Positions 3,443-6,820 of a stretch of 11,288 bases of DNA are shown here, piece by piece. Source of the DNA: Gammaproteobacteria bacterium (GTDB lineage Bacteria > Pseudomonadota > Gammaproteobacteria > Halothiobacillales > Halothiobacillaceae); assembly GCA_029335925.2 (NCBI GenBank), contig JARJMX020000011.1, positions 1 through 11,288 on the forward strand, in the 5' to 3' direction. The position numbers and the translations under genes were made by a program. How positions within the stretch are numbered: the first letter of the stretch is position 1; each line of letters starts with the position of its first letter. Below the pieces are notes generated by a model. It searched no databases and was not told where the DNA came from. It saw nothing but the letters and a program-made list of their open reading frames with translations.

Positions 3443-6010
3443 TCATCCTTCCACCCGCTTGGTGCGGCGCGTCGGTGTGGCGGTGAGTGGATCCTCTGGC
3501 CAAGGATGCTTGGGATAGCGCCCGCGCAGGTCCTTGCGCACGTCCTGATAGGGCCCGCGCCAGAAGCTCGCGAGGTCCTGGGTGACCGCCACCGGCCGCT
3601 GCGCGGGCGAGAGCATGTGGATCATCACCGGCACCCGCCCCTGGGCGATCCGCGGCGTTTCCAGCAGGCCGAACAGCTCTTGCAGCTTGACGGCCAGCAC
3701 CGGCAGCCCCCCGCCTTCGAGCACCGGGCTGTAGTCCAGGGCGATGCGCGAACCGCTCGGCACTTCGAGGTGGGTGGGCGCGAGCCGGTCGAACTCCTGC
3801 CGTTTGTCCCAAGGCAAAAGGCTCTGCAGGGCGGCATCGAGGTCGAGCCGCTCAAGGTGGGAAAGGCGGGTCATGCCATCGAGCCGGGGCACGAGCCAGT
3901 CATCGAGTGAGGCCAAGAGCGCAGCATCGGAGACGTCCGGCCACCCCTCGCCGAGCGTGCGACGCAGCAGGGTAACCCGTCCCCGCCATTGCTGATGGCG
4001 CGCCTGCCACGGCAGACAGGCCAGGCCGACTTGGCAGATACCTTCCAGCAGGGCGGTACGCACTCGTTCCGGATCGGGTTTGGGGAGTGGGCGGTCCTCT
4101 AAGACCAGCGCCCCGAGACGGCGCTGACGGCGGGCCATGACAGCCTGCTCGCGACCATCCCAGGTTACCTCCTCCACATCCTCGATCCGGGCGGCAAAGG
4201 CCTCCTCGATGTCGTTCAGCGTAAGGCCTGCGGCGAGGAACACGCGCGCCTCCCGCCGCACGCCATCGGTATGGCCATCGAGATGGGCGATGGCGAGCCA
4301 GGGCGCATGCGCCAAGGCATCGACCGCATCCAGCAGCGCACCCCGTCCGTTGGCGAGCACGAAGCGCCCAGGCTGGCCCATTCGTCCCTGCGCTACGCGC
4401 TCCGGGTAGGCCAAGGCGACCAGCAGGCCGACAGCATGAACATCTCCCGCGGCACCGACAAGCTCGATCCCCATACGCCGGGCAAGATCGCGGGCCGACT
4501 GGCGGACGCGGGCGCGCGCGCCTTCGTCGAGGGTAAGTCCAGCGGGCAGGGCCGCACTGCCCCACCGCAGGGCTTCGATGCGCAGGACGAGGTCGGCCGG
4601 AAGGCGCTCGCACCCCGCGCCCCGCAGCAAGTCGCGCTCGCCAAGCAGCGCAGCCAGCTCACAGGCCAGCCTGCCATATCCCAGTCGATTCCCCTCCACC
4701 AGCATGTGGGCAAGCCGGGGATGCAGGGGCATGCGCGCAAGCTCCCGGCCATGCGGGGTCATGTGGCCTCCGGCATCCACGGCGCCGAGCCCCTGTAAGA
4801 CCTCGCGGGCCTGGTCGAGCAAGGCCGCAGGTGGTGGATCAAGCCAGAACAGCTCTTCCGGGTGGGCCCCCCACTGGGCCAGTTCAAGCGCCAGCGGCAG
4901 CAGGTCGGCGCGCTGGATCTCGGGCTCAGCCTGCGCCGGCAGGCTGCCCTGCTCGCCCTCCCCCCATAGGCGGATGCACACCCCGGGCCCCAGGCGTCCC
5001 GCCCGGCCGCAGCGCTGCTCGGCGTTGGCCTTGCTGATATGCTGGGTGACCAGCCGGGTCATGCCACTTGCGGGGTCGAAGCGCGATACGCGGGCAAGGC
5101 CCGAGTCCACCACCACCCGCACCCCCTCGATGGTCAGGCTGGTTTCGGCAATGTTGGTGGCGAGAATGACCCGGCGGCGCTCATGGCGGGGCTCCAGCAC
5201 GGCGTGTTGCTCGGCGAGGCTCATGTCGCCGTGCAGGGGAAGGACATCGACTTCCGCAAGCTCCCTTAGCCCCGCAGCCACCCGCTGGATCTCTCGTTTA
5301 CCCGGCAGGAAAACCAGGATGTCGCCATGCTCCTCCGCCAGAGCGCGCCGCACCATGGCGGCAGCATGGCCCTCCAGCGAGAAGTCGCGCTGAGGCGGCC
5401 GGTAATGGACCTCGACGGGGTGCAAGCGACCCGCACTTTTCACCACTTGAGCCTGAAGACGCTCCGCCAGCGGCAAGCCCTCGAGGGTGGCCGACATGAT
5501 CAGAACACGCAAATCCTCGCGCAACATCTGTTGGGCCTGGAGGGTGAAGGCCAGCCCCAGATCAGCCTGCAGGCTGCGCTCGTGGAATTCGTCGAAGACA
5601 ACCAACCCCACCCCATCAAGCGAGGGGTCATCCTGCAACATGCGCGTGAGCACGCCCTCCGTGACCACCTCAATGCGGGTCGTGGGTCCCACCCGGCTTT
5701 CCACGCGCATGCGGTAACCGACGGTCTGGCCCACGGCTTCGCCCAACAGCCCCGCCATACGCTCGGTGACGGCACGCGCGGCAATGCGACGAGGCTCGAG
5801 CATGATGATTCGCTGCCTGCCCAACCAGGGCTCATCCATCAGGGCAAGCGGAACGACGGAGCTCTTGCCAGCCCCCGGCGCAGCCTCCAGCACAACCACT
5901 CCAAAGGTGGCGAGGGTATCGCGTAGCGCGGGCAGGATTTCGACGATGGGCAGATCAATCCGGGTGGGATCAAACCCTCTGGCATGATTTTTGGGGTGCA
6001 TGGAGGACAT
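3443..6010 (-). CDS. hrpB: ATP-dependent RNA helicase HrpB (DEAH/DExH family)
   Basis: The protein is 855 residues, slightly longer than E. coli HrpB. Helicase motifs appear in order: Walker A APGAGKSS (residues 44-51), EPRRIAARA (72-80), the Walker B/DExH box DEFHERS (140-146), SAT (173-175), LVFLPGKREI (232-241), LATNIAETSLTI (283-294) and QRCGRAGR (332-339). The C-terminal HrpB-specific domain ends in DLASFWRGPYQDVRKDLRGR, YPKHPWPEDP (from residue 812), which separates HrpB from HrpA and other DExH proteins. Its substrate is poorly known; HrpA relatives act on mRNA or ribosomes. The ATG at 6010-6008 is chosen; a second ATG three codons in (6001-5999) has no Shine-Dalgarno sequence, and the first has only a weak AGGTG about 11 nt upstream. 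It is convergent with actP, and its promoter must lie in or near the DnaA-box region upstream. Confidence 0.95.
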   Translation of the reverse strand: MSSMHPKNHARGFDPTRIDLPIVEILPALRDTLATFGVVVLEAAPGAGKSSVVPLALMDEPWLGRQRIIMLEPRRIAARAVTERMAGLLGEAVGQTVGYRMRVESRVGPTTRIEVVTEGVLTRMLQDDPSLDGVGLVVFDEFHERSLQADLGLAFTLQAQQMLREDLRVLIMSATLEGLPLAERLQAQVVKSAGRLHPVEVHYRPPQRDFSLEGHAAAMVRRALAEEHGDILVFLPGKREIQRVAAGLRELAEVDVLPLHGDMSLAEQHAVLEPRHERRRVILATNIAETSLTIEGVRVVVDSGLARVSRFDPASGMTRLVTQHISKANAEQRCGRAGRLGPGVCIRLWGEGEQGSLPAQAEPEIQRADLLPLALELAQWGAHPEELFWLDPPPAALLDQAREVLQGLGAVDAGGHMTPHGRELARMPLHPRLAHMLVEGNRLGYGRLACELAALLGERDLLRGAGCERLPADLVLRIEALRWGSAALPAGLTLDEGARARVRQSARDLARRMGIELVGAAGDVHAVGLLVALAYPERVAQGRMGQPGRFVLANGRGALLDAVDALAHAPWLAIAHLDGHTDGVRREARVFLAAGLTLNDIEEAFAARIEDVEEVTWDGREQAVMARRQRRLGALVLEDRPLPKPDPERVRTALLEGICQVGLACLPWQARHQQWRGRVTLLRRTLGEGWPDVSDAALLASLDDWLVPRLDGMTRLSHLERLDLDAALQSLLPWDKRQEFDRLAPTHLEVPSGSRIALDYSPVLEGGGLPVLAVKLQELFGLLETPRIAQGRVPVMIHMLSPAQRPVAVTQDLASFWRGPYQDVRKDLRGRYPKHPWPEDPLTATPTRRTKRVEG

Positions 6011-6122
6011 GAAAAATCACACCTGAGCGTAGGGCGGGATTGCTCCACATGGGCCGTGGATGAATCTGTGGATAAAGCGGTGGAAAACAGCGCAAAAACG
6101 CATCCGATCAGGGCTTTCAAAC

Positions 6123-6145
6123 GCCTGATCAAATTTTGATCAGGC
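6123..6145. repeat. Perfect 23-bp palindrome with two Dam sites
   Basis: Two 11-bp arms (6123-6133, GCCTGATCAAA, and 6135-6145, TTTGATCAGGC) are exact reverse complements around a single T at 6134. Each arm carries a GATC. A further inverted-related GATCAGG lies at 6106-6112. It sits at the centre of the AT-rich core between the two groups of DnaA boxes. It could be a dimeric regulator site, a SeqA/Dam target, or part of an unwinding element. Confidence 0.6.
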
Positions 6146-6162
6146 AGGACTCGTATTCAAAG

Positions 6163-6175
6163 AATCAATAACTTA
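6163..6175 (+). promoter_or_regulatory. Consensus IHF binding site
   Basis: AATCAATAACTTA matches the IHF consensus WATCAANNNNTTR at every defined position. It lies between the left (6041-6087) and right (6199-6303) DnaA-box groups, where a sharp IHF bend would bring them together as in E. coli oriC. A match this short can occur by chance, but it is less expected in GC-rich DNA. Confidence 0.5.
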
Positions 6176-6391
6176 GCGCAACCCGCTCTCTATAAGACCT
6201 ATCCACGCAGGGCTTTTCAAGGGCTTGACAAGGCTTGTGGAAAAGAAATCGCATCCGGAGCCTGAAAGTCATCCACAAAGACTGTGGAAAAGCCTGTGCA
6301 GGAGGTGGGTATGATGCGCCCAAGCTCTGGTCGTTCATGGCTTTTCCGACTCGCCCGAGCTGCGCACAGCCGATGATCGGAGCCGCATCCG

Positions 6392-6778
6392 TCAGTGTTT
6401 TGGTCCAAGCAGCTCAATCGGATAACCATCCGGGTCCTCAACGAAGGCAATGATCGTACTGCCCGCATTCATCGGCCCCGGCTCGCGGATGATCTTGCCA
6501 CCGCGCGCACGGATCGCTTCGGCCGCCTGGTACACGTCGTCCACCTCCAGGGCTATGTGACCGTAGGCCGTGCCCATCTCGTAATGATCCACGCCCCAGT
6601 TATAGGTCAGTTCCAGCACTGCCCCCTCGGACTCGTCCTGGTAGCCGAGAAACGCCAGGGTAAACTTCCCCTCGGGATAATCCTTGCGGCGCAGCAGGCG
6701 CATGCCGAGTACCTCGGTGTAAAAACGGATGGAGCGATCAAGATCGCCGACGCGGAGCATGGTGTGCAGGATGCGCAT
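6392..6778 (-). CDS. gloA: Lactoylglutathione lyase (glyoxalase I), GloA type
   Basis: GloA isomerises the hemithioacetal of methylglyoxal and glutathione to S-lactoylglutathione in the cytoplasm. The protein is 128 residues (E. coli 135) and is a single-module VOC-fold enzyme. All four metal ligands align with the E. coli numbering: His5 ([16 protein letters not shown]), Glu56 ([10 protein letters not shown]), His74 ([13 protein letters not shown]) and Glu122 ([12 protein letters not shown]). The short form lacking the extra loop is the Ni/Co-dependent bacterial class. The start at 6778 is chosen over the in-frame ATG at 6811 because the family N-terminus begins here, AGAGG lies 8 nt upstream (6791-6787), and the longer form would run through the argG terminator hairpin. 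It is downstream of argG on the same strand, so expression needs readthrough or its own promoter. Confidence 0.95.
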
Positions 6779-6796
6779 GATTTCAACCTCTGGGAA

Positions 6797-6820
6797 GGAA
6801 AAGGCCCGCAAGCGCGGGCC
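6797..6820 (-). terminator. Intrinsic terminator between argG and gloA
   Basis: Read on the minus strand, GGCCCGC (6820-6814) and GCGGGCC (6809-6803) form a 7-bp, nearly all-GC stem with the loop GCTT, followed by TTTTCC (6802-6797). It begins 30 bp after the argG stop and ends only 5 bp before the gloA Shine-Dalgarno sequence. It should end most argG transcripts, though the U-tract is short. Confidence 0.75.

Follow-up and report, generated by a model that had tools for sequence, protein, structure and literature searches.

The window analysed here is a stretch of 11,288 bp that makes up the entire contig C205 of a 1.64-Mb draft genome in 214 contigs. Its genes run in the order acetate-CoA ligase (partial), a small frame, actP, hrpB, gloA, argG, aceE and the start of an E2 gene, with hrpB, gloA and argG on the minus strand. 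The subject of this report is the 381-bp intergenic spacer between hrpB and gloA (6011-6391). An earlier note had remarked that the usual neighbours of oriC (dnaA-dnaN-rpmH or gidA/mioC) are absent, and the gene content bears this out: the site adjoins hrpB and gloA, and the dnaA gene of this genome lies on another contig. Neither a promoter, including one of the sigma-70-like kind, nor a terminator was found in 5980-6420, and there is no Rfam match for a structured RNA within 5900-6500.

The spacer is rich in DnaA boxes (Table 1). The perfect box claimed in the earlier note is present (TTATCCACA at 6067, minus strand), as are three boxes with one mismatch at 6236 (-), 6269 (+) and 6283 (-). 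Four of the five claimed two-mismatch boxes were recovered (6041 +, 6055 -, 6079 -, 6199 +). The supposed fifth must be TCCTGCACA at 6295-6303, which has three mismatches against TTATCCACA and two against TTWTNCACA. The numbers of boxes with at most one mismatch (4) and at most two (8) were equalled in none of 2000 dinucleotide shuffles of 6011-6391, and a perfect box arose in 3 of 2000. The DnaA boxes of the spacer are real and far above chance.

The other reported elements fared unevenly. The consensus IHF site is there (AATCAATAACTTA, 6163-6175), and so are the three GATC sequences, at 6106, 6127 and 6138. The AT-rich core, given as about 35% GC, holds over about 50 bp only (minimum 32%, 6126-6175) and dissolves over longer stretches, the lowest-GC 100-bp stretch having 42% and the whole of 6041-6303 having 48% GC. 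GATC occurs 91 times in the window, and SeqA was found in none of 10 family genomes searched; the three GATCs of the spacer therefore do not argue for sequestration as at oriC. A SeqA/Dam meaning for the palindrome at 6127 was rejected on the same SeqA result. This site, read earlier as a Dam palindrome, matches the Fis consensus instead and lies 60 bp from the start of box III in core A. The beginning of this Fis-like palindrome is overlapped by another, imperfect inverted repeat at 6106-6130, with arms that are 83% complementary.

Table 1. Features of the hrpB-gloA spacer and its flanking genes, in window coordinates (g1, the window's genus; g2, g3 and g4, further genera of Halothiobacillaceae)
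Feature	Position	Strand	Sequence	Remark
hrpB, ATP-dependent helicase	3443..6010	-		adjoins the site in g1 and g2 only
DnaA box I, core A, weak	6041..6049	+	TGCTCCACA	starts 14 bp ahead of box II, as in E. coli DARS1/DARS2
DnaA box II, core A, weak	6055..6063	-	TCATCCACG	box scan and core pattern
DnaA box III, core A, perfect	6067..6075	-	TTATCCACA	aligned in relatives
Extra DnaA box, tandem with box III	6079..6087	-	TTTTCCACC	box scan
Fis-consensus palindrome	6127..6141	.	GATCAAATTTTGATC	+60 from box III of core A
IHF consensus (minus-strand reading)	6163..6175	-	TAAGTTATTGATT	+96 from box III of core A
Isolated two-mismatch DnaA box	6199..6207	+	CTATCCACG	box scan
One-mismatch DnaA box	6236..6244	-	TTTTCCACA	box scan
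DnaA box I, core B	6269..6277	+	TCATCCACA	box scan and core pattern
DnaA box II, core B	6283..6291	-	TTTTCCACA	box scan and core pattern
DnaA box III, core B, weak	6295..6303	-	TCCTGCACA	core pattern; aligned within the genus
gloA, lactoylglutathione lyase	6392..6811	-		neighbour that retains the site family-wide

The arrangement of these boxes is that of a DnaA-reactivating sequence (DARS). The DARS1 and DARS2 cores of E. coli MG1655 have box I in one direction and boxes II and III in the other, with start-to-start spacings of 14 and 12 bp. The accessible part of PMC5742627 likewise describes a box spacing that is identical in DARS1 and DARS2 and a box I that is opposite to II and III. The spacer carries two cores of this type, the imperfect core A (6041-6075) and core B (6269-6303), each with three boxes, the same relative orientation and the same spacings of 14 and 12. 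Against the search pattern TTWTNCACA-N5-TGTGNAWAA-N3-TGTGNAWAA, DARS1 has 2 mismatches and DARS2 has 3, core B of the window has 3 and core A has 4, and the best match in datA has 6. Core A of genome G002 has 5 mismatches. In core A of the window, the two boxes that form the catalytic pair in E. coli (I and II) have two mismatches apiece.

The site is retained throughout the family. A gloA gene was detected in 25 of 27 family genomes (G024 and G026, which gave no match, are left out of the 25), and in all 25 it is followed by a DnaA-box cluster with at least one core at three mismatches or fewer. The conservation check proposed in the earlier note thus found the box geometry kept across the family. 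Five gloA loci from other families (L004, L009, L014, L026 and L028) contain no such cluster. Full-length HrpB follows gloA in g1 and g2 (6 genomes). HrpB has only partial matches in g3 and g4; these cover about 430 residues, belong to long frames elsewhere in the genome and by length look like HrpA.

The gene neighbours bear on the possibility that the spacer is an operator through which DnaA, together with IHF, controls transcription of hrpB (or gloA). Core A and the extra box are placed 31-77 bp before the hrpB start codon, and DnaA binds its E. coli targets, promoters included, through paired boxes 2-3 bp apart, according to the accessible part of PMC11317965. However, the core stays beside gloA in g3 and g4, where HrpB is represented by the partial matches just described. 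In the two genomes of g3 and g4 that were read, the genes next past the site, named by eye, are an ArsR-like fusion and then GAPDH in G006, and GAPDH with an MFS gene in G009. The region 5980-6420 also lacks a sigma-70-like promoter, and we consider an operator function very unlikely.

Cores of this type are common beyond the gloA locus. A genome-wide search at three mismatches or fewer found a core in 50 of 57 genomes, the window's own included, and none in 7, and the reversed pattern occurred in 0 of 57. A control with both gaps 2 bp longer matched 1 of 57 genomes, and the same control reversed matched 2 of 57. In a sample of the phylum, 69 of 120 genomes have a core (27 of 30 from the same class and 42 of 90 from other classes), as compared with 2 of 120 for the reversed pattern. 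A few single matches, such as one in G062, look like chance occurrences. One match in the class adjoins a frame read by eye as rppH, the gene beside which DARS2 sits in E. coli. Even at four mismatches, the core was found at none of 30 dnaA loci examined, so it does not mark the dnaA end.

The number and grouping of cores vary among genomes. One to three per genome is usual in the same class, but G055 has six and G078 five. The f47 genomes are rich in them, with nine in G094 (3.1 Mb), six in G084 and five in G102. Twin cores about 270-550 bp apart were seen at L157:1951-2531 (G006:C1, about 842 kb), G010:C9:180353-180834, G018:C50:28722-29286 and G031:C15:1221-1527, and the window's locus is accordingly not alone in being twinned. 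Within 1.59 Mb sampled from relatives, the twin-core site in G006 is the sole locus at three mismatches or fewer outside the gloA loci.

The core is accompanied by an IHF site at a set distance. Offsets are counted from the start of box III, and the IHF consensus is that printed in PMC4245941, which was accessible in part. The window has the exact consensus at +96, and all 6 loci from g1 and g2 have exact matches at +94 to +96. Allowing one mismatch, a site lies at +92 to +97 in 18 of the 25 family gloA loci and is missing there in 7. The reference in g1 is core A; with the best-scoring core instead, IHF falls at +90 to +99 in 16 of 25. The offset, first seen in the family, was then sought at +90 to +99 around 40 cores of the class (27 genomes, 27 other families), and 26 had the site. 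A narrower interval of +92 to +96, fixed afterwards, contains the same 26 loci, all with the site in the same orientation, and 0.15 are expected. Since shifting the IHF site of DARS2 by 5 or 10 bp reduces activity (PMC4245941, accessible part), a fixed phase is what would be expected of a working site.

A second phase involves Fis. An exact Fis consensus lies at +58 to +60 in 18 of the same 40 class loci (expected 0.16 for +57 to +63), and 11 of the 40 have Fis and IHF sites jointly. This offset was spotted in the class profile, which makes it post hoc as regards the class; the Fis consensus at 6127 in the window had been listed earlier. Among the gloA loci, the six from g1 and g2 all carry the consensus at +60, three of them exactly and three with one mismatch, and a Fis-like site with at most one mismatch occurs at +57 to +64 in 0 of 19 loci of g3 and g4. 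Among 20 second family loci, 10 have the exact Fis phase and 2 have IHF at +92 to +97. The palindrome pooled from 44 sites in 60 loci away from gloA is ATTGGTCAATTTTTGACCAAT. Judged by its match to the consensus, the palindrome at 6127-6141 is probably bound by Fis, and binding of another dimeric protein is possible. The expected numbers derive from the remaining offsets of the same loci, each stretch counts once via its best core, and related genomes are not independent. The 42 core matches outside the family contributed 33 stretches with 34 matches, with 8 matches omitted, and the 7 further class loci and the 20 second family loci were hand-picked and are not a random sample.

Core B lacks this phasing. 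It has no IHF site at two mismatches or fewer within +85 to +104, and the closest exact Fis consensus lies at +69 rather than +60; on these grounds, core B as an independent module was rejected. The IHF site at 6163-6175 is the only one in the spacer at one mismatch or fewer, and it lies about midway between the cores, 111 and 117 bp from their centres. Each core is deficient in some way: boxes I and II are weak in core A, and core B combines a weak box III with the absence of IHF and Fis sites in phase. Together with the central IHF site, this makes joint action through one bend a reasonable guess, and it may be speculated that an IHF U-turn could bring both cores together.

The earlier note had given a gammaproteobacterial origin in an unusual gene neighbourhood as one reading and proposed GC skew as a check. 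An origin would indeed be expected to contain DnaA boxes, IHF and GATC sites and a short AT-rich stretch. The check was run in relatives, on 20 sampled stretches (about 300 kb in total) from each of four complete family genomes, and in three of the four it placed the site at or near the terminus. In G006, G009 and G011, the skew changes from negative to positive at dnaA and back to negative, as at a terminus, at the gloA site; one G006 stretch (980 kb, +0.007) deviates from the pattern. The distance from the gloA-side core to dnaA is 0.49-0.50 of the genome in these three and 0.36 in G008, where gloA and the plus-to-minus turn are 0.08-0.13 of the genome apart. The converse assignment, with oriC at gloA and the terminus at dnaA, would place both opposite each other equally well and is overturned by the sign of the skew. 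Within the genus of the window (G001 and G003), two contigs 211 and 188 kb long have positive skew in all sampled stretches, with no switch at the site. Likewise, the skew in the window is -0.065 to the left and -0.057 to the right of the spacer, with no switch.

The dif site gives a second view of position. A dif-like sequence with up to three mismatches is present in 14 of 14 family genomes searched, G001 having a second, weaker match. It lies 12.4-15.1 kb from gloA in five genomes (G006, G009, G011, G015 and G017) and 392 kb from it in G008; in the remaining eight, dif and gloA are on different contigs. Taken together, skew and dif placement across genomes indicate that the position of the site varies within the family, yet the site stays with gloA. 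In relatives, the site does not coincide with the GC-skew minimum expected of oriC. The origin reading is rejected on the skew and dif of relatives, and we give it next to no probability. The spacer itself, the separate dnaA contig and the skew of relatives point to an intergenic site away from oriC, as is typical of a DARS. A further DARS-type core in G009 and G011 (G009:C1:565092 and G011:C1:2138234) is separated from dnaA by 0.14-0.15 of the genome, so that an arm site is paired with a near-dif site in both.

We conclude that the gloA-hrpB spacer is, with high probability, a two-core DARS-type locus and not a replication origin. In E. coli, ADP-DnaA molecules on the head-to-head boxes I and II interact through their AAA+ domains, ADP leaves and apo-DnaA reloads ATP, and DARS2 is activated by IHF and Fis, as described in the accessible parts of PMC8682772 and PMC10380432. 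By analogy, the spacer most likely regenerates ATP-DnaA from ADP-DnaA, and it would do so through binding of DnaA, IHF and Fis followed by ADP release. ADP-DnaA would occupy boxes I and II in head-to-head fashion, and box III would stabilise the complex. IHF at 6163-6175, and probably Fis at 6127-6141, would bend the DNA and activate the complex. ADP would then be released, and apo-DnaA would leave and load ATP, raising the initiation-competent pool of ATP-DnaA. Relevant proteins appear to be at hand in the family: genes for IHF-alpha and a Fis homologue are present in 10 of 10 genomes each, and Hda scores above the cut-off in nine of the ten. The exception is the draft genome of the window, which gave no full-length Hda and has just a 55-residue match at a contig end. 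A finding that counts against the DARS reading is that DARS2 of E. coli works less well when relocated near the terminus (PMC5010248, accessible part). Also counting against it are the weak core A, the weak box III and missing phase of core B, the lack of a phased Fis-like site in g3 and g4, the 7 family loci that have no IHF site in phase, the 7 genomes without a core and the missing full-length Hda.

The earlier note had also offered datA or DARS as an alternative to an origin. The DARS half of this proposal agrees with the core geometry and its retention in relatives, whereas datA lacks that core. A datA-like site would lower active DnaA by titration or by DnaA-ATP hydrolysis, and a box cluster with one consensus IHF site is the parts list of datA given in the accessible part of PMC5742627. 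The minimal datA consists of boxes 2, 3 and 7 around a single IHF site. Any box cluster titrates some DnaA, so the spacer may have a share in titration. On the other hand, the I-II-III core occurs twice in the window and the best match of datA to it has 6 mismatches. E. coli datA is also close to oriC (PMC10380432, accessible part), which the site is not in the relatives examined. Overall, we regard a datA-like role as unlikely, with a small share of the probability left to it.

A DARS in Halothiobacillaceae is no surprise in kind, because sequences like DARS1 and DARS2 are conserved in many proteobacteria, according to the accessible part of PMC10380432. A literature search, mostly without subscription papers and supplementary figures (for example PMC4245941 Figure S10A, which may show part of the phasing), turned up no description of such a site in Halothiobacillaceae, and none of the +60/+94 phasing or of a native DARS located next to dif. 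The DARS literature found concerns E. coli. The same core combined with another phasing of Fis and IHF, shared across the class, amounts to a testable general model of DnaA recharging. The first DARS paper is reportedly that of Fujimitsu in 2009. The class phasing predicts an IHF site at E. coli DARS1, where core and site would together span 134 bp and so exceed the stated DARS1 length of 101 bp. The copies that lie near dif in several genomes of the family oppose the E. coli finding of a weaker DARS2 near the terminus. Sulfur oxidisers of this group can be cultured, and these copies make position effects testable in them.

A wider joint reading is offered tentatively, as a possibility with less than even prospects. 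The ancestral gammaproteobacterial DARS may have been a rigid machine of boxes I-II-III with a Fis-type palindrome and an IHF site, at about 60 and about 94-96 bp from box III respectively; DARS1 and DARS2 of E. coli would be rearranged descendants of that machine. The gloA-linked copy of Halothiobacillaceae would have become twinned round one IHF bend in the window's genus. In several sister-genus genomes it lies within about 15 kb of dif, so that copying the last stretch of the chromosome might raise DnaA reactivation and couple termination to the next initiation.

The spacer can finally be set against the known DnaA-binding loci. It shares DnaA boxes, an IHF site and an AT-rich stretch with a gammaproteobacterial oriC, but GC skew and dif in relatives place it wrongly for an origin. 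Its boxes form head-to-head pairs, which the accessible part of PMC10380432 contrasts with the head-to-tail boxes of oriC. E. coli datA resembles it in having DnaA boxes and one IHF consensus site, and differs in lacking a DARS core (at best 6 mismatches) and in having the opposite biochemical effect in E. coli.

E. coli DARS1, between bioD and uvrB, has the same core geometry and a degenerate IHF-like site in the same orientation at +95 (2 mismatches, TAACCAGTTAAAA, L191); unlike the window, it has no Fis consensus near +60. DARS1 acts in vitro without additional factors, as stated in the accessible part of PMC5742627. In G092, a DARS1-like core (L258) is accompanied by an exact IHF consensus at +95. 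In contrast to the window's site, DARS2 (rppH-mutH) has one-mismatch IHF-like sites at +67 and +83 and an exact Fis site at +119 in a consensus scan of MG1655. IHF thus precedes Fis in DARS2, whereas in the window Fis at +60 is followed by IHF at +96. The window also differs in having a second core among the distal boxes and other gene neighbours, and the gloA-linked site is terminus-proximal in several relatives. The likeness to DARS2 lies in the intergenic location, the three-box core with its 14/12 spacing, the IHF and Fis sites on the box III side and the additional DnaA boxes beyond them.
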